From contig CANGXK010000068.1 in NCBI GenBank assembly GCA_947457715.1, positions 1-9,647 of the forward strand: a DNA stretch of 9,647 nucleotides, read 5' to 3'. Within the stretch, counting starts at the first letter, position 1. Each line of letters opens with the position of its first letter. The notes beneath the pieces are model-generated. The model searched no databases. It was not told the origin of the DNA and saw only the letters and a list, made by a program, of their open reading frames with translations. The position numbers and the translations under genes are program-made. This document shows positions 1,597 to 9,401 of the stretch, in pieces. This stretch comes from Gemmatimonadota bacterium (GTDB lineage: Bacteria; Gemmatimonadota; Gemmatimonadetes; Gemmatimonadales; Gemmatimonadaceae).

Positions 1597-3084
1597 ATGC
1601 CGCATTATCCCTCAATGTTCAGCCACCCGAAGGAAGACACGGTCGCTGGCTTCGTCGTGTTTCTGGTGGCCCTGCCGCTATGCCTCGGCATCGCGATCGC
1701 CTGCGGCGTTCCCCCCGTGTCCGGCCTGATTGCCGGCATCGTCGGTGGACTGGTGGTGCCGTTCATCAGTCGCTCGCCGCTTTCGGTGACGGGACCGGCC
1801 GCTGGTCTGACGTCGATCGTGCTGGTGGAAGTGCAGCGGCTCGGGGGTGTCAATCCCTTCCTGACGGCGGTGATCATCGCCGGGCTCCTGCAGTTCGCGT
1901 TGGGCATCATCAAGGCCGGCCGCTTCGCCGCGCTTGTCCCGTCGTCGGTGATCAAGGGAATGCTGGCCGCGATCGGTATCACCATCATCCTGAAGCAGCT
2001 GCCGGTTGCCGTGGGCTCGGATGGCGGCTTGCCGACAATGGTTGCCCAGCACAACGCCGGTGCGGTCACGATCGCACTCGTCTCGCTGGCCATCCTCTAC
2101 GGGTGGAAGCACACGCCGCTGGCGAAGATCAAGCTCCTCTCGCCCGCGCTCGTGGTGGTGCTCGCGGCCAGCGGACTCGCGGCGGCCTTCGCGTCGTCGC
2201 CAACGTTCGCACTGGACGCCCGTCACTTCGTCGACGTGCCACTCGGCGGACTCGGCGCGCTGTACTCGGCGCTGCCCCGCCCTGACTGGGCCGCGATCAC
2301 CAGTCCGGCGGTGTGGATCGCCGGTGCGACGATCGCCGTCGTGGCCAGCATCGAAACGCTCCTGTCGCTGCAAGCCGTCGACCGGCTCGATCCGCTCAAG
2401 CGTCACAGCCCGCCGGACCGTGAACTGCTGGCGCAGGGTACGGCCAACGCGGTGTCCGGTTTCCTCGGCGGCCTGCCGGTCACGGCCGTCATCGTGCGCA
2501 GTGGCGCCAACGTCTCGGCCGGCGGACGCGATCGCATGTCGTCGCTGGTGCACGGTGTGCTGTTGCTGGTAGCTGTACTGTTCGCCGGTGCGCTGCTCAA
2601 TCGCATTCCACTTGCCGCACTCGCCGCCGTGCTCATTCAGGTTGGCCTGAACCTCTGCAAGCCGGCGCTGTTCACGACACAGGTTCGCCTCGGCATGACG
2701 CAGCTGTTGCCGTTCGGCATCACGATTGCCGCCGTGCTGGCACTCGATCTGCTCAAGGGTGTCATTGTCGGCATCTTCATGGGTATCGCCTTCGTGCTGT
2801 ATGAGAACTCGAAGCGCGCCGTGGTGGCCGAAAGGGACGAGGCCGGGGTATGGCAACTGCGCTTCCGCCGGGACGGCACCTTCGTGTCGAAGCCGGGCAT
2901 CGTCTCCACGCTCGAAGAGGTCGATGACGGCGAGACTGTGGTCATCGACGGCACTGGCGAATACATCGATCATGACGTGAAGGAGGTGCTGGCCACCTTC
3001 ATCGCAGACGCGGAGCATCGCAACATCACGGTGAGCGTGCGCGGGATTGATATGACGCACGCTCAGGGCGGCGGCGGACACTGA
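1597..3084 (+). CDS. SulP-family anion permease, probable bicarbonate transporter
   Basis: A 495-residue inner-membrane permease. Residues 13-405 or so hold about ten to twelve hydrophobic segments of the SulP/SLC26 fold (Sulfate_transp), with the family signatures LVALPLCLGIAIACGVPP near residue 25 and VTGPAAGL at 64-71. This subtype is the one found fused or linked to carbonic anhydrases in many bacteria and proposed to carry bicarbonate. The C-terminal part, from about residue 429 (FVSKPGIVSTLEEV, VVIDGTGEYIDHDVKEV), looks like a short, divergent STAS domain, and the protein ends in a Gly/His tail. There is no fused carbonic anhydrase domain. The reading frame is open from a TTG at 1552; I chose the ATG at 1597, and the ATG at 1615 is equally plausible because neither has a clear ribosome binding site. 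The stop is 2 bases before dabA, which supports an HCO3- role, but sulfate or another anion cannot be excluded. Confidence 0.88.
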   Translation: MPHYPSMFSHPKEDTVAGFVVFLVALPLCLGIAIACGVPPVSGLIAGIVGGLVVPFISRSPLSVTGPAAGLTSIVLVEVQRLGGVNPFLTAVIIAGLLQFALGIIKAGRFAALVPSSVIKGMLAAIGITIILKQLPVAVGSDGGLPTMVAQHNAGAVTIALVSLAILYGWKHTPLAKIKLLSPALVVVLAASGLAAAFASSPTFALDARHFVDVPLGGLGALYSALPRPDWAAITSPAVWIAGATIAVVASIETLLSLQAVDRLDPLKRHSPPDRELLAQGTANAVSGFLGGLPVTAVIVRSGANVSAGGRDRMSSLVHGVLLLVAVLFAGALLNRIPLAALAAVLIQVGLNLCKPALFTTQVRLGMTQLLPFGITIAAVLALDLLKGVIVGIFMGIAFVLYENSKRAVVAERDEAGVWQLRFRRDGTFVSKPGIVSTLEEVDDGETVVIDGTGEYIDHDVKEVLATFIADAEHRNITVSVRGIDMTHAQGGGGH

Positions 3085-3086
3085 TC

Positions 3087-5999
3087 ATGTCGGCCTCGGC
3101 GCATCACGGCACGGCCGACGCACACGAGGCCGATCCGGTCGTACGCGCCCTCGCCGCGGCGCATGGCATTCTCCCCGATCAGGGACCGATCGGGGTGTTC
3201 ATCCACCACAATACGCTGCACGCCTTTCAGCATCTGCCGTTTCACGAAGGCGTGCAGGCCGGTGCCACTGCGCTCGGCGCGCGACCGTATCTGAGCCTGC
3301 GCGAGTTCCGCGACGCGCTCGCCGTCGGACGCGTGGCGGAGTCGGACGTCCGGCACGAGATCGGGCGCGCACTGGGACATCGGGGCGCTGAGGCCGTGAT
3401 CACGGGGCTGTCACGCGCCGAACTCTGGGCGCAGCTCGTGCTTTCCGACGCGGACACCGACGATGCCGCCGCGCTGCACTATATGATTGCCTCCGGCAGC
3501 GCACCGCCATGTCGTGACGAGCCGCGCTGGCAGGCGTGCGTGGAGCGGGTGTCGCGCGGCCCGCGTCTCGCGCCGCGCGACACCCGACGACTGCAGCGTC
3601 ATCGGGACGTGCTCGTGGAGCTCCGACAGTCCGACACCGATGTCGCGGTCCATGGCGAGTTGATTCGCCTGTCGTCGGGATTCCTCGATCAGGGGCAGGC
3701 GCAGGTCAGTGCCCCCTATCGCGAGAAAGGGTTTCTGCGCGCGGTCTCTCAGGCCTACGCGGATGGTGCGTCACCGCCACGCGCCTGTCGCGGCGTCGAG
3801 CACGACATGCGCGCCGTCTTCGCGGCCAATGAATCCGCCGGCTCGGTGATTCGGCGTATGCTGAGCGCGTTCGGTGTCCACGGTGACGCGACCGAACCGT
3901 TGCTGCTCGCCACCGCGCTCGCCCTGCCGGGATGGAGCGGCATGTTCGCGCGGCTCGAACGACATCCGGAAGAACACCCGGATGGGGCGGCGGTGTCACT
4001 CGAAGAATTCCTCGCCGTGCGGCTGCTCTTCGAGGTGCATGCCGTAAAGCGCGCCTGCACCGAAGCGGGAATCCCGTACGAGTGGCCCGCGCTCCAGCGC
4101 CTCACGCCTGCGCCGCCGGCACGCGATGCCGTACTCGATGCGTCGTTGCTGTTCACACTGACCGGCGCTGCGCGTCTCGATGCCGCAGCGGTCCGCGCGC
4201 TCGATGACGCGACCGTGTCCACGCTGTGGACGGAGTGCGTGGCCTGCACCGACATCGCGCGCCGGCAGCTTTTCCAGGAAGCCTACGAGCGCTCCTATCG
4301 CACGGTGATTCTCGATGCGGTGGCGGCCCGACGTGCACTCCCCGATGATGCCGTGACGACGGAACGGCCACGAGGCCAGTTCGTGTTCTGCATCGATGAA
4401 CGCGAAGAGTCGATCCGTCGCGCGCTCGAGGAGCAGCATTCCGGCTACATCACGTTTGGGACGGCGGGCTTTTTCGGCGTGGCGATCGACTACATGGGGC
4501 TCGACGACCATGCGGTCGCCGCGCACTGCCCGGTGGTGGTGACTCCCGCTCACGAAGTGCACGAGCAGCCGGTGTACACGGCGCGCGGACGGCATGCACT
4601 CCGGCAGCGCGTCCGCGATCGCTGGCTCGGCTGGGAACGCCGCGCCGCCGTGGCGTCGCGCACGCTCACGGGTGGTGCGGGCCTCTCGTTTCTGCTCGGT
4701 CCGATCTCTGGCCTCAAGACGCTGGCGCGCGTAGCTGCGCCCCGTTCGTCGCTGCAGTGGGGACAGCGCCTGGTGTCGCGGCTCGCGCCGGTGCCCTCCA
4801 CACGCCTCTCGGCCTTTCGCGTGGACGACAGCGCCCGTATCACCGATGGTGGCAAACCGGTCGGCTTCTCACTCGACGAGTCGATCGACCGGGTCACGGC
4901 CGTACTCACGAATCTCGGACTGGTGCGTGACTTCGCCCCGATCATCGTCTTTCTGGGTCACGGGTCCACCAGCCTGAACAATCCGCACGAGTCGGCGCAC
5001 GACTGCGGCGCCTGCGGCGGTCGGCGCGGCGGCGCGAATGCGCGCGTATTCGCCGACATGGCCAACCGCCCCGATGTCCGTGAGGGTGTGCGGCGGCGTG
5101 GCATCAATATCCCGAACGACACGTGGTTCGTGGGCGCGTTGCACGACACCGCCAGCGACAGCGTGCGCTACTACGATCTCGAAACGCTGCCGACATCGCT
5201 GGTGTCGGCGTTCGAGGAGGTGTTTGGGGCGCTGGAGGTTGCGCGCCGCGAAGACGCCCTCGAGCGCAGCCGGCGTTTCGACGATGCGCCGCTCGACCTC
5301 ACCCCTGAGGCGGCGCTCCTGCACGTCGAGGCGCGCTCGTCGCACCTCGCGCAGCCGCGGCCGGAGTATGGGCATTGCACCAACGCCATCTGCATCGTGG
5401 GCCGGCGACAGCTCACCCGCGGACTGCACCTCGATCGCCGCGCATTTCTGGTGAGCTACGACCCCGCCGTCGACGAGAACGACAAGGTGCTCGAACGCAT
5501 TCTCGCCGCCGTGGGCCCCGTCGGGGCGGGCATCAGTCTCGAGTACTACTTCTCATCGGTGGACAACGAGACGTTCGGCTGCGGCACCAAGCTGCCGCAC
5601 AATGTCACGGGACTCATCGGCGTGATGAACGGGCATCAAAGCGATCTCCGTACCGGTCTGCCGCGACAGATGGTGGAAATCCATGAGCCGATGCGTCTGT
5701 TGCTCATCGTGGACGCGTCTCCGGAGTCGTTGTTGACGGTGGCATCGCGTCAGGCCGAGGTGGCCGAGTTGGTGACGAAGCAGTGGATTCAGCTGGTCGC
5801 GGTGCATCCGGACACCGGGGCGATGTCGCTCTTTCAGGACGGCGGATTCATGCCGTACGAGCCGCAACCCATGCTGCTGCCCGTCGTGGAACGCTCGCCC
5901 GAGTGGCATATGCAGAGTCGCGCGCACTTGCCCCCGGCACTCGTGCGCAGTGCCTTGCCGCTGTCGGCTGTCGGCCCTCGACTTCACCAACCGACATGA
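3087..5999 (+). CDS. dabA: DabA (DUF2309), carbonic-anhydrase-like subunit of an energy-coupled inorganic carbon pump
   Basis: A 970-residue soluble or peripheral protein of the DUF2309/UPF0753 family (DabA, MpsB), longer than the roughly 830-residue Halothiobacillus DabA. Known DabA binds zinc in a beta-carbonic-anhydrase-like site and works only with its membrane partner, giving one-way CO2 hydration at the cytoplasmic face. All expected ligands are present: Cys435 and Asp437 in FCIDERE (with Arg439 completing the Asp-Arg dyad), His625 in FLGHGS and Cys640 in HDCGACGG. The spacings (+2 and +15) match Cys351/Asp353/His524/Cys539 of the characterised protein. The N-terminus carries FIHHNTLHAFQHLPF (38-52). 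The C-terminal third holds the conserved EYYFSSVDNE, GCGTKLPHNVTGLIGVMNG and LPRQMVEIHEPMRLL. There is no signal peptide or transmembrane segment. Its stop overlaps the dabB start in ATGA, implying translational coupling and a shared complex. Confidence 0.95.
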   Translation: MSASAHHGTADAHEADPVVRALAAAHGILPDQGPIGVFIHHNTLHAFQHLPFHEGVQAGATALGARPYLSLREFRDALAVGRVAESDVRHEIGRALGHRGAEAVITGLSRAELWAQLVLSDADTDDAAALHYMIASGSAPPCRDEPRWQACVERVSRGPRLAPRDTRRLQRHRDVLVELRQSDTDVAVHGELIRLSSGFLDQGQAQVSAPYREKGFLRAVSQAYADGASPPRACRGVEHDMRAVFAANESAGSVIRRMLSAFGVHGDATEPLLLATALALPGWSGMFARLERHPEEHPDGAAVSLEEFLAVRLLFEVHAVKRACTEAGIPYEWPALQRLTPAPPARDAVLDASLLFTLTGAARLDAAAVRALDDATVSTLWTECVACTDIARRQLFQEAYERSYRTVILDAVAARRALPDDAVTTERPRGQFVFCIDEREESIRRALEEQHSGYITFGTAGFFGVAIDYMGLDDHAVAAHCPVVVTPAHEVHEQPVYTARGRHALRQRVRDRWLGWERRAAVASRTLTGGAGLSFLLGPISGLKTLARVAAPRSSLQWGQRLVSRLAPVPSTRLSAFRVDDSARITDGGKPVGFSLDESIDRVTAVLTNLGLVRDFAPIIVFLGHGSTSLNNPHESAHDCGACGGRRGGANARVFADMANRPDVREGVRRRGINIPNDTWFVGALHDTASDSVRYYDLETLPTSLVSAFEEVFGALEVARREDALERSRRFDDAPLDLTPEAALLHVEARSSHLAQPRPEYGHCTNAICIVGRRQLTRGLHLDRRAFLVSYDPAVDENDKVLERILAAVGPVGAGISLEYYFSSVDNETFGCGTKLPHNVTGLIGVMNGHQSDLRTGLPRQMVEIHEPMRLLLIVDASPESLLTVASRQAEVAELVTKQWIQLVAVHPDTGAMSLFQDGGFMPYEPQPMLLPVVERSPEWHMQSRAHLPPALVRSALPLSAVGPRLHQPT

Positions 6000-7333
6000 C
6001 CGACTCGTTGATCGACACCCCGTCCCTCGTCCGCGGCGCGCTCGCCCTGACGGTGCTCGCGCCACTCCTCAGTGTCTTCATCATCGGCATCCAGGTCCTG
6101 CTCTGGCGGAAGCATGCGTCTGAGCGGTTCGTCACGCTCGTCGTGCACGGCGGACTCATGGCATCCATCGGTGCCGGTGCCGTCGTGCTGACAGGATACC
6201 TCGGCCTGATCGGGGCACCGGTACGCGGCGATATCGAGTTCGGAGACTGGCTGCGCATTCGTGACTTCCGCATTCCGGCCGTGTTGCTCGTCGATCGCAT
6301 CTCGATCACGATCGCCCTCTTCGCGTCCGTGCTCACGGCGCTGGTCGCGCGCTTCTCCCGCACCTATTTGCACAAGGAGCCCGGCTTCACGCGCTTCTTC
6401 ACGCTGCTCGGACTGTTCGCGACGGGCACGCAGTTGGTGGCGCTGGCCGGTGCGCTGGAGCTGTTCTTCGCGGGATGGGAGCTGATCGGCATTTCGTCGG
6501 CCTTCTTCATCGGCTTCTTCCACGAGCGCGACGAGCCGGTGCGCTCCTCGGTGCGCGCCTTCGCCACCTATCGCTTCTCCGATGCCGGCCTGCTCATCGC
6601 CACGGTGATGACCTTCGACGCGCTCGGTTCGGCGCGCTTCTCGGCGCTGGGCAGTGCGGCAACGCTGCCGGCCATGCAGTCCACCGCGATTGCGCTGCTC
6701 TTCCTGCTGTCGGCGATGGGGAAGTCCGCGCAGCTGCCGTTCTCCGGCTGGCTACCGCGCGCGATGGAAGGGCCGACCCCGTCGAGTGCGCTGTTCTACG
6801 GTGCCGTCTCGATTCATGCCGGCCTGTTCCTGCTCCTGCGCGTCTGGCCGATGCTTGAAGTGTCAATGATCGCCCGGACGATGGCGGTGATCGTCGGTCT
6901 CGCCACCGCGGTCTATGCGGCGGCGGTCGTGCGCGTGCACACCGATGCCAAGGGCGCGCTCGCCCACGCGACGCTGGCGCAGGTTGGCTTGATCCTGGCT
7001 GAAATCGGCATGGGCTGGACGACGCTCGCGCTCGCGCATCTGGTGTGCCATGCGTTTCTGCGCCTGGGGCAGTATCTCAAGGCGCCGAACATGATCCACG
7101 ACAGCCACCGCCTCGGGCACGCCAACCGCGCGCCGAGCCTGATCGAGCGGTGGTCGCCCAAAGTGGCGGCGCGAGTCTATGCGGCGTCGCTGCATCGCTT
7201 GCGGCTCGACGACCTCATTGACACCATGCTGGTACCGATGCTCGGCGTGGCCCGACTGCTCGACCGCGCCGATCAGCGCTTCCGGCGCGCGCTGTCAGCC
7301 GACGAGCGAACCACGCCACGGGGTGACGCGTGA
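5996..7333 (+). CDS. dabB: DabB, NuoL/MrpA-like proton-conducting membrane subunit
   Basis: A 445-residue polytopic membrane protein of the Proton_antipo_M family (PF00361), related to NuoL and to DabB/MpsA. The ATG at 5996 overlaps the dabA stop, so I prefer it to upstream in-frame starts. By eye it aligns with E. coli NuoL without gaps over the core. Glu162 in FAGWELIGISS matches NuoL Glu144, and Lys243 in GKSAQLPFSGWLPRAM matches Lys229. His348 and His352 match His334/His338. Two changes stand out: Arg356 replaces the TM11 Lys342, and Tyr268 replaces His254. The tail (RLDDLIDTMLVPMLGVA, LLDRADQRF) resembles the end of NuoL, but the long lateral helix is absent. In DAB pumps this subunit couples ion movement to the DabA reaction. 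A respiratory complex I role is unlikely without other nuo genes nearby. Confidence 0.92.
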   Translation: MTDSLIDTPSLVRGALALTVLAPLLSVFIIGIQVLLWRKHASERFVTLVVHGGLMASIGAGAVVLTGYLGLIGAPVRGDIEFGDWLRIRDFRIPAVLLVDRISITIALFASVLTALVARFSRTYLHKEPGFTRFFTLLGLFATGTQLVALAGALELFFAGWELIGISSAFFIGFFHERDEPVRSSVRAFATYRFSDAGLLIATVMTFDALGSARFSALGSAATLPAMQSTAIALLFLLSAMGKSAQLPFSGWLPRAMEGPTPSSALFYGAVSIHAGLFLLLRVWPMLEVSMIARTMAVIVGLATAVYAAAVVRVHTDAKGALAHATLAQVGLILAEIGMGWTTLALAHLVCHAFLRLGQYLKAPNMIHDSHRLGHANRAPSLIERWSPKVAARVYAASLHRLRLDDLIDTMLVPMLGVARLLDRADQRFRRALSADERTTPRGDA

Positions 7334-8451
7334 GCGATGTCATGACGACCTTTTCGGCCCCGTGGGAAGCGTTGCTGTTCTGCATGGTGCTGCTGGCGGC
7401 GCCGGTGATCGCCCAGCCAGGGCGGCGCCAGGCCATACCGCTGCTGGCGATGATCCTCACGCAGGGCATCGCGTTCTTTTCAGGGCACGGCGCGATTGCC
7501 TACGGAGCGGTAGCCGGCAGCGCCCTGATTCATGCGGCCAGTGCGTGGCCTCTCGCGCGCACCGGCGCCTGGATGCTGCTCACGACCGCTGGCCTGGCTG
7601 CGGCCGCCGCCGTCAGTATCCATCTGGGGCATCTGACCGTCGCGTTGGTCCTCTCCGGCCTCGCCATCGCGATGCGCACGGGGGTGATGCCGCTGCACGT
7701 CGGCGTGGCGAGTCTCTGCGACCGGGCACCGTCGGTGCAGACGCAGCAACTCGCGTCGGCCATTGCGCTCGTCTTCGTACACCTGCGCTTCGTCGATCAT
7801 CACGAGGCGGCGATCATCCTGGCACCGTGGTTCATCCGCGGCGGCGCGGTCGCCGCTATCGTGGCGGCGCTGATCACGCTCGTTCAGAAGGATCTGCGCG
7901 GCTTCTATCGCGGCACGACCGCCATGCACGGCGGCATGGTGCTGGCCGCCATCGGCACCGCCAGCTACGGCAGCTTCGCGGCCGCGTTGCTGGTCATGGT
8001 CACCATGGGCCTCGCGCTCGGCGGCATCGGCATCATGACGAGCGCGCTCGAGTCGCGCGTGGGACCGGTGTCGTTCAGCGGCCCGGGCGGGCGCGTGGTG
8101 GCATTCCCCGTGCTGGCGGCCGCCTTCGCGTTGTTCGGTGGCGCCGGCGTGGGCCTGCCCGGCATGGCAGGCTTCGTAGCCGACGATCTGCTGCTCCACA
8201 CACTGTGGATGGAGAGCCCGATCAGCACGGTGGCGATCATCCTGGCCAGCGCCTTCCTCGCCGTCGCCACGCTCACCGGCTACTCGAAGACGTTCCTCGG
8301 CCGTGGCATGCCGTCGATGGCGCCGGATCTGCTCACCCGCGAACGCCTAGTCGCCGCCACGCTCCTCGCGCTCCTGCTGGTGCTCGGCTTCATGCCGGGC
8401 GTGTTGCTCACGCCGGCCGACGCCTTCCTGAGTGTGACGCCACCAGCGTAA
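7330..8451 (+). CDS. Second antiporter-like subunit, short NuoM/MrpD-like membrane protein
   Basis: A 373-residue, very hydrophobic protein whose GTG start overlaps the dabB stop (GTGA); an ATG at 7342 is an alternative. It resembles NuoM (about 510 residues) from TM5 onward. Residues 12-13 (Trp-Glu) followed by a hydrophobic helix look like the TM5 WE motif. AMRTGVMPLH (114-123) and DRAPS (131-135) match the TM7-TM8 region. LVQKDLRGFYRGTTAMHGG around Lys187 matches the DIKRxxAY segment, and GLPGMAGFVADDLLLH matches the GFxGE segment. By ungapped alignment NuoM Lys234 becomes Arg116, Lys265 becomes Leu147, and Glu407 corresponds to the Asp285/286 region. The four N-terminal helices of NuoM appear to be missing. 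It may be a structural or second ion-path subunit of the DAB complex; the function is inference. It is the last gene of the operon. Confidence 0.8.
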   Translation: MSDVMTTFSAPWEALLFCMVLLAAPVIAQPGRRQAIPLLAMILTQGIAFFSGHGAIAYGAVAGSALIHAASAWPLARTGAWMLLTTAGLAAAAAVSIHLGHLTVALVLSGLAIAMRTGVMPLHVGVASLCDRAPSVQTQQLASAIALVFVHLRFVDHHEAAIILAPWFIRGGAVAAIVAALITLVQKDLRGFYRGTTAMHGGMVLAAIGTASYGSFAAALLVMVTMGLALGGIGIMTSALESRVGPVSFSGPGGRVVAFPVLAAAFALFGGAGVGLPGMAGFVADDLLLHTLWMESPISTVAIILASAFLAVATLTGYSKTFLGRGMPSMAPDLLTRERLVAATLLALLLVLGFMPGVLLTPADAFLSVTPPA

Positions 8452-8624: not shown

Positions 8625-9401
8625 ATGACCTCCTCCGCAAGACCCGTCTGCCTCATCACCGGTGCGGCCACCGGTATCGGCGCCGCCTGCGCCCGCACCT
8701 TCGCTAGCCACGGCTGGGACGTCGGCATCTGCTCGCTCGACGACGACACCCGCCCCGCCGCGGACGCCGTGGCCGCCGAATGCACCGCGCTCGGGGCGCG
8801 GGCCGAGGTAGTGTTGCTCAACGTCACCAGTGATGACAGCTGCCACGCCGCCGCCGCGACCATGCGCGAGCATTTCGGGCGCACCGACGCGTTGGTGAAC
8901 TGCGCCGGCACCACGCGCTTCATTCCCCACGCCGATCTCGACGCCTTACACGAGAGCGAGTTCGCGCGCACGTACGACGTGAATCTCACCGGCACCTTTC
9001 GCATGATCCGCGCCTGTCGCGATCTGCTGCGGGAGTCGGGGCGCGGTGCGGTGGTGAACCTGTCCAGCATCGCCGGCACGGCCGGTCTAGGGTCGAGTGT
9101 GGCCTATGCCGCATCGAAGGGCGCCGTGAGTACCCTCACGCTGTCGCTGGCCCGCGCACTCGCCCCGCATATCCGCGTGAACGCGATCGCCCCCGGCTAC
9201 GTGAGCGGTGGCTTGCCCAGTCGCGTGCTCGACGGCGACAAGCTGAAAGCGGTGGAAGAGAAGTATCTGGTCACGCAGGCGCTGCCGCGGCTGCTGCAGG
9301 TGGACGAGGTGGCGGGGCTGGCGTATTTCCTCGTGGCCGGCGCCCCCGGCATCACAGGCGAAGTGATTCGCATGGACAACGGGTTGCACCTGTATGCCTG
9401 A
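8625..9401 (+). CDS. Short-chain dehydrogenase/reductase (FabG-like 3-oxoacyl reductase family)
   Basis: A 258-residue classical SDR of normal length with a single Rossmann fold. The cofactor-binding TGAATGIG has Gly13, Gly17 and Gly19, and NCAG is at 92-95. The catalytic tetrad is complete: Asn120 (YDVNLTG), Ser148 (NLSSIAG), Tyr161 and Lys165 (YAASK). RVNAIAPGYV and the closing GITGEVIRMDNGLHL are also typical. It is cytoplasmic and NAD(P)H-dependent, reducing a keto group or oxidising an alcohol. The substrate cannot be predicted, although such proteins are often named 3-oxoacyl-ACP reductase. The ATG at 8625 starts the conserved N-terminus and has no evident ribosome binding site. It is separated from the dab operon by 173 bases and overlaps the next dehydrogenase gene by 8 bases, so those two form their own unit. 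Confidence 0.93.
   Translation: MTSSARPVCLITGAATGIGAACARTFASHGWDVGICSLDDDTRPAADAVAAECTALGARAEVVLLNVTSDDSCHAAAATMREHFGRTDALVNCAGTTRFIPHADLDALHESEFARTYDVNLTGTFRMIRACRDLLRESGRGAVVNLSSIAGTAGLGSSVAYAASKGAVSTLTLSLARALAPHIRVNAIAPGYVSGGLPSRVLDGDKLKAVEEKYLVTQALPRLLQVDEVAGLAYFLVAGAPGITGEVIRMDNGLHLYA

Follow-up and report, generated by a model that had tools for sequence, protein, structure and literature searches.

DAB systems, whose name reportedly comes from Desmarais in 2019, consist of a zinc subunit resembling beta carbonic anhydrases (DabA) and a NuoL-like subunit (DabB), and the model of their coupling has so far been argued from one structure. Four consecutive genes, sulP, dabA, dabB and the NuoM-like open reading frame (ORF) ORF4, are the subject here. 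They lie in the window, by which is meant the whole 9,647-nucleotide stretch analysed from a Gemmatimonadota bacterium (contig CANGXK010000068.1 of assembly GCA_947457715.1). Their dabA-first order marks, with full tree support, a putative second DAB type, split from the type to which the solved structure belongs.

That structure is of DAB2 from Halothiobacillus neapolitanus (DabA2/DabB2, PDB 9rd0; PMC13144422). According to the accessible text of the report, Glu444 on the DabA2 finger occupies the place of K399/D400 in NuoL, and the mutants E444A and E444Q have lost all activity. The cytoplasmic half-channel is in DabB, and the periplasmic half is formed by DabB transmembrane helices (TM) 12–13 together with the finger Glu444. 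Leu658, which replaces the Gln/His of beta carbonic anhydrases, is called strictly conserved on the strength of 150 homologues. The terms 'operon', 'gene cluster' and 'genomic context' are absent from the accessible text, in which SulP occurs in one reference only.

The gene layout has an earlier history. A 2017 COGNAT paper (PMC5700660), in its accessible part, places dabA (there ybcC) upstream of a nuoL homologue, in a neighbourhood that often has COG0659 (SulP) and COG1008 (NuoM). No function had yet been assigned, outward ion pumping was proposed, the number of membrane subunits was suggested to set the number of ions, and that part deals with neither residues nor a complex. The sequence-only reading of the window could not say whether its four-gene layout had been described; it had, in this paper. 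In the window dabA stands before a nuoL homologue and is accompanied by NuoM and SulP genes, as in the definition of COGNAT clade C of ybcC/COG3002, to which the window very probably belongs. With the layout itself known, what appears to be new is the gene order as the mark of a second DAB type and the split-channel model set out below. The literature searched, which took in few subscription papers and no preprints, yielded no description of the residue split or of the half-channel idea.

The locus and the two types of DabA

The four genes follow each other on one strand from 1597 to 8451, with joins of +2, −4 and −4 bases, and the features discussed are:

1597..3084, + strand: sulP, a SulP-family anion transporter, probable bicarbonate porter (495 residues; PF00916 Sulfate_transp, 160.4 bits)
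3087..5999, + strand: dabA of type B, the beta carbonic anhydrase-like zinc subunit (970 residues; PF10070, 762.4 bits)
4575..4736, + strand: the membrane-finger hairpin of DabA, residues 497–550 (predicted model and alignment)
5996..7333, + strand: dabB of type B, a NuoL-like subunit (445 residues; PF00361 Proton_antipo_M, 136.7 bits)
7330..8451, + strand: ORF4, a NuoM-like subunit, the proposed outer half-channel (373 residues; PF00361, 39.1 bits; predicted NuoM fold)
8155..8208 (codon positions approximate), + strand: the ORF4 TM12 motif GLPGMAGFVADDLLLHTL, with two Asp at the columns of NuoM 407/408 (NuoL K399/D400)

The run of SulP, DabA and two antiporter-like genes read from the letters alone is borne out by the ORFs and the Pfam matches, with DabA and SulP above their curated cut-offs of 25 and 23.2 bits. 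The joins had been given as within 2 bases, which is right for sulP-dabA, whereas dabA-dabB and dabB-ORF4 overlap by 4. The sulP start is taken at the ATG at 1597; the mechanical ORF list begins at TTG 1552.

The loci compared are referred to by L numbers. The first set holds the best 80 of 192 confirmed DabA loci, ranked by likeness to the window DabA, and 79 further regions from surveys of Gemmatimonadota, Gammaproteobacteria and Planctomycetota and from single genomes, a total of 160 loci with the window included. DabA was carried by 14 of 249 genomes in the Gemmatimonadota survey, 55 of 229 in the Gammaproteobacteria class sample and 27 of 199 in Planctomycetota. A later sample of 49 loci comes from Myxococcota (45 carriers in 193 genomes) and Acidobacteriota (3 in 247); among its DabAs 40 differ from one another at a 90% identity threshold, and L300 duplicates L033. 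Because the 79 further and 49 later regions were hand-picked, mostly as full-length matches, the proportions of the two types do not reflect how common they are in nature. The DabA tree and the counts of SulP linkage use 133 non-redundant rows, and residue counts use all rows, near-duplicates included. Type A and type B were sorted by DabA residue 658 (DabA2 numbering), with L177, a locus with an over-long ORF, counted as type B. The finger acid was scored from the full alignment, an earlier simple finger pattern having missed 51 of 165 sequences.

The DabA tree (FastTree) has two sides, of 50 and 83 rows, with full support, and the split persists in a 57-row tree made without the trait columns. 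On one side the order is mostly dabB then dabA with no second antiporter gene, and on the other it is dabA, dabB, ORF4. All 65 type A DabAs have Leu658 and Ser356, and 64 have an acid at 444. Of the 146 in type B, 145 have His658; Glu356 is found in 141 of 144, and a 444 acid is present in just 7 of 144, each of them an Asp from the Nitrotoga/Methylobacter group. The zinc ligands Cys351, His524 and Cys539 and the Asp353–Arg355 dyad are present in every covered row and in the window DabA, which has His at 658, Glu at 356 and Phe in the Glu444 column. There is no acid in its finger core; D511 and E517 are near the finger base. The predicted model nonetheless retains the hairpin (helices 497–524 and 527–550; mean pLDDT 85.4). 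Among acid-less fingers generally, 110 of 139 have no acid at all from −12 to +6 of the column. A Foldseek search with the window DabA model gave no match at E 0.001, the best being CsoSCA (E 8.4e-3), and no DAB2 entry was among the matches listed. To judge by these alignments, neither the pattern of Glu444 essentiality nor the conservation of Leu658 extends from DAB2 to type B.

Finger acid, DabB and ORF4

The presence of ORF4 goes with the lack of the finger acid. Among the 165 DabA ORFs of the first set, those with ORF4 present comprise 82 without a finger acid and 8 with one (all Asp), and those assessable without ORF4 comprise 52 with the acid and 7 without. The remainder are 12 acid-less DabAs at a contig edge and 4 with no letter at the column. 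The 7 acid-less DabAs that lack ORF4 are all in L188–L192, and their DabB is extended, to 653–666 residues; the 653-residue kind carries the C-terminal half of ORF4 (independent E-value about 1e-17). Whole DabB-ORF4 fusions are present at L049, L220 and L221. Lineages with DabB extensions form two clades, both inside type B. (At L188, L189 and L190, of Planctomycetota, two divergent dabA-dabB pairs stand side by side, each with a C-terminally extended DabB.)

For the later sample a prediction was fixed beforehand, and the parts scored were the finger acid against ORF4 or an extension, DabB, ORF4 and SulP, gene order being left out. Nine loci have the acid and no ORF4, 35 have ORF4 and no acid, 2 have an extended DabB and no acid, and none goes against the prediction, a fit of 46 of 46 assessable loci, or 45 of 45 new ones when L300 is set aside as a copy. 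Two rows with the acid and one without (L267) are at contig edges and cannot be assessed. The neighbouring ORF4 appears, as far as sequence goes, to supply a part that the solved pump requires and that type B lacks.

DabB differs between the types in the same sense. At residue 151, the site of NuoL E144, Glu is found in 112 of 112 DabBs of type B versus 1 of 56 of type A, and in the later sample in 35 of 35 acid-less loci and both extended ones, versus 0 of 7 canonical loci. After TM11 there is no hydrophobic segment in 87 of 89 window-type DabBs, versus 3–5 in 53 of 56 canonical ones. The window dabB encodes a DabB2 homologue (E 2.5e-29), which has a 77-residue tail with no hydrophobic segment, versus four in DabB2. 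Two type A DabB ORFs are longer, of 858 (L157, 5415–7991) and 848 residues (L170, 5391–7937), with 11–12 hydrophobic segments after TM11.

The predicted model of ORF4 shows the NuoM fold for the greater part of the protein, which lacks roughly the first 47 residues of NuoM. Its best Foldseek match is chain D of 6tjv and its best sequence match is E. coli NuoM. Against the key residues of NuoM, K234 is Arg in the window ORF4, K265 and the E144-site Glu are lost and E407 is Asp. Among window-type ORF4s in general (counted without L073 and L218), 59 of 60 are acidic at NuoM column 408, and all 62 have lost K265 and the E144-site Glu. In the later sample (counted without L296, which has several antiporter-like ORFs) the 408 acid is present in 34 of 34 and K265 absent in 34 of 34. 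The sole ORF4 with letters there that lacks the 408 acid is at L194 (5067–11016), where dabA is broken by a stop; this seems to be a decaying cluster. At L049, L050, L052, L055, L065, L074 and their kin (Rhodocyclaceae, Magnetococcales, Nitrotoga, Methylobacter) up to three further antiporter-like genes are found around dabA-dabB. The ORF4-like proteins of the multi-antiporter group keep K265 in 63 of 63.

SulP linkage and the hosts

The survey of dabA neighbourhoods that the sequence-only reading had proposed found the window gene order in loci labelled Gemmatimonadota, Acidobacteriota, Planctomycetota, Myxococcota and Pseudomonadota. In the 133-row set a SulP gene lies within 400 base pairs (bp) of the dab cluster at 34 of 44 assessable window-type loci (33 on the same strand, one on the opposite), and of the 33, 21 are upstream and 12 downstream. 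This is so at 1 of 41 assessable canonical loci, with two more within 5 kilobases (kb); 16 further window-type and 8 canonical loci reach a contig end and are not assessable. The multi-antiporter group has 4 adjacent SulP genes, 7 more within 5 kb, 5 loci with none and 4 at a contig edge, and the three rows whose DabB has an ORF4-like extension have none. Of the 37 acid-less loci of the later sample, 34 adjoin a SulP gene, 32 of them on the same strand and 2 on the opposite one, versus 0 of 6 assessable canonical loci, with 6 more canonical loci cut off by contig ends. An odd canonical locus, L207 (574–12481), counted apart from the 41, has mixed features: its DabA is of type A (Asp444, Leu658), SulP precedes it by 3 bp, and a block reading ORF4-DabB-ORF4-like follows after some 2.4 kb. 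At L005 (8455–15356), titled Sphingomonadales, the proteins are 60–75% identical to the four of the window, by transfer or on a mis-binned contig.

The repeated linkage, which exceeds chance and has SulP either upstream or downstream, supports the view that SulP is a partner and not a passenger. A working partnership of SulP with the complex, as first put forward, stands to that extent, but the 10 of 44 assessable window-type loci without SulP rule it out as a core subunit, and it is best read as a frequent but dispensable partner. The other suggestion of the sequence-only reading, one module taking up both forms of inorganic carbon, is a conjecture, so that this reading is partly supported. 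Since SulP is missing from some window-type loci, and ORF4 or a DabB extension is found at every assessable acid-less locus, it is the NuoM-like protein that probably serves as the additional core subunit.

As to what SulP carries, the window SulP clade (25 rows, support 100, FastTree) lies inside a 40-row clade (also 100, its inner forks partly open) which includes SulPs beside a beta carbonic anhydrase gene (G055, G151, G090, G103, G004) and one fused to that enzyme (L022). BicA and SLC26Dg fall outside its group. Identity with BicA is rejected, by this separate position and by a score of 122 bits with the NCBIfam BicA equivalog, for which 880 are required. The 'bicarbonate-associated subtype' of the sequence-only reading therefore holds in that the protein groups with carbonic anhydrase-linked SulPs, but not with BicA. 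Because of that grouping, SulP is probably a porter with an inorganic-carbon role, bicarbonate being its most likely substrate. At L022 (6022–8304) the SulP::beta carbonic anhydrase fusion (PF00484, 123 bits) comes directly before a window-type sulP-dabA-dabB-ORF4, and L014 (5769–15251) has SulP, beta carbonic anhydrase, SulP, dabA, dabB and ORF4 in a single run. A C-terminal P-II domain is present on the SulPs at L041 (6386–8398), beside a type B cluster, and at L169 (14765–16846, minus strand), 2.3 kb from a type A cluster (PF00543, 44.1 and 39.5 bits), which suggests control of the porter by nitrogen/carbon status. With all zinc ligands in place and related loci adding beta carbonic anhydrase, its fusion to SulP and SulP::P-II, the designation of the locus as an inorganic-carbon operon is well supported.

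Beta carbonic anhydrase is present in 13 of 14 DAB-bearing Gemmatimonadota versus 147 of 235 without DAB, which rules out DAB as a carbonic anhydrase substitute. A general role in serving RuBisCO is ruled out too: among 33 DAB-bearing genomes of both types, 4 match PF00016 and 3 are over the cut-off. These include G055, whose match is of 464 residues and is not assigned to the true RuBisCO or the RuBisCO-like class. Because few DAB hosts pass the RuBisCO cut-off and most have beta carbonic anhydrase, the role of the operon in most of these hosts is probably bicarbonate supply for other carboxylases, or pH/ion balance.

The window operon is flanked upstream by an old-yellow-enzyme-like gene (256–1329) and downstream by a short-chain dehydrogenase gene (8625–9401). 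Two terminator-like sites occur in the operon, both within dabB, a number below that in shuffled sequences, and an RNA family search of the window gave no match.

A proposed split-channel model, its rivals and the described systems

On balance we favour a reading in which the operon encodes a three-subunit proton-driven DAB complex (DabA, DabB and ORF4, with ORF4 as the periplasmic half-channel) together with a SulP porter. DabA would hydrate CO2 at a beta carbonic anhydrase-like zinc site on the cytoplasmic face, powered by proton flow through the membrane part. DabB would be the cytoplasmic half-channel, and the TM12 acid of ORF4 the periplasmic one, standing in for the finger Glu and DabB TM12–13 of DAB2. 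Glu144 of NuoL contacts TM12 of NuoM, and by analogy Glu151 of DabB may face ORF4. SulP would most likely carry bicarbonate across the same membrane. The reading builds on the gene order, residue patterns, predicted folds, natural fusions and linkage seen here, while subunit contacts, proton path, reaction direction, SulP substrate, co-transcription and function as a whole are what we infer.

That ORF4 might be a complete second ion channel, with more ions moved per CO2, accords with the extent of its NuoM fold and with the 2017 idea on subunit number in the accessible part of PMC5700660, and it may hold in the multi-antiporter group, where K265 is kept. For window-type loci it is improbable: their ORF4s have all lost K265 and the E144-site Glu while nearly all retain the TM12 acid, and extended DabBs of the 653-residue kind bear the C-terminal half of ORF4 alone. 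Another possibility is that the residues have simply drifted apart since a single ancient divergence, with no mechanistic meaning and with ORF4 an accessory. The essentially single split on the DabA tree is what this would predict, but functionally placed sites shift jointly in three proteins and are then nearly invariant, and lineages without ORF4 retain its C-terminal half or a similar motif on DabB; we doubt this explanation to a like degree.

Two further alternatives concern SulP. It could swap DAB-made bicarbonate for another anion, the whole serving anion uptake or pH balance and not carbon gain. Other SulP-family proteins exchange anions, and hosts mostly without RuBisCO and mostly with beta carbonic anhydrase fit such a reverse-sense cycle. 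Nothing tells directly against it, the SulP::P-II fusions and the linkage to beta carbonic anhydrase indicating inorganic carbon but not direction, and we regard it as unlikely though worth keeping in mind. It is harder to credit that this SulP is a porter of sulfate, or of some other anion, whose linkage to the dab genes reflects no working partnership. No characterised SulP was found in the window clade, and the BicA score is low; against this, the linkage occurs in several phyla, upstream or downstream, and the protein groups with SulPs beside or fused to beta carbonic anhydrase.

Several observations weigh against the split-channel reading itself. Eight DabAs beside ORF4 retain Asp at 444, 22 fingers carry a Glu seven positions ahead of the 444 column (those shown are from Myxococcota), and the type A DabA of L267 (23–2797; the contig ends early) has Gly there, be it a real exception, decay or a sequence error. 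DabB extensions of about 665 residues match ORF4 weakly (independent E-values 0.0008–0.005), showing a GVPG...WEY motif, and those of L310 and L313 in the later sample were recognised from a motif and from hydrophobic segments instead of a hidden Markov model match. A test of finger acid against ORF4 by independent pairs had 2 pairs and gave no signal; because the types are essentially one deep split, the association is untestable as repeated events. In DAB2, changes of Leu658 are tolerated, and L658Q does not catalyse without a membrane potential, according to the accessible text of PMC13144422. In the Gemmatimonadota with DAB, the beta carbonic anhydrase present in nearly all would counteract a bicarbonate pool.

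If the split-channel reading is nevertheless followed, a large side of the DabA family might, more tentatively, be a second mechanistic kind of energy-coupled carbonic anhydrase. Its proton path would be shared between two antiporter proteins, as it is in complex I, finger-Glu coupling would be replaced by a neighbouring subunit, the active site would have the His usual in beta carbonic anhydrases, proton flow might be coupled to CO2 chemistry in a different way, perhaps a reversible one, and SulP would feed or drain bicarbonate. Type B, lacking Glu444 and Leu658 and keeping the zinc site, offers natural variants for testing the coupling model, and cautions against extending the DAB2 mechanism to all DABs. 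Its operon is an alternative compact module for carbon-concentration work, and the association with SulP, a layout on record since 2017, becomes testable.

Among described systems, DAB2 has homologues of both window proteins, DabA at a phmmer E of 1.1e-68 with identity at 163 of 485 aligned positions and DabB at the E given above, and has the zinc ligands and Asp–Arg dyad in common with the window. The window differs in its reversed gene order, its lack of a finger acid, His for Leu658 and Glu for Ser356 in DabA, a DabB that lacks helices beyond TM11 and has Glu in place of Ile151, the extra NuoM-like subunit and the linked SulP. DAB1 (DabA1, DabB1 and the small membrane protein hneap_0908), in the accessible text of PMC13144422, has a third membrane protein as the window does, but a small hypothetical one where that of the window is NuoM-like; the DAB1-like layouts seen here, in which a gap separates the dabB and dabA genes, have the finger Glu. 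The cyanobacterial NDH-1MS, a complex for CO2 uptake, has a NuoM-type subunit, 6tjv chain D, which besides being the structural match of the window ORF4 is the best sequence match of that of L041. MpsAB of Staphylococcus aureus consists of DabB and DabA homologues that give bicarbonate to a non-autotroph, and was proposed as a Na+/bicarbonate cotransporter; the accessible text names neither a NuoM-like protein nor SulP as a partner (PMC6689103). In can2-sulP of Acidithiobacillus ferrooxidans a SulP is paired with a CO2-hydrating enzyme, as in the window, where, in distinction from such SulP-beta carbonic anhydrase pairs as the accessible text describes them (PMC6458275), the partner would be an energised DAB and not a free carbonic anhydrase.

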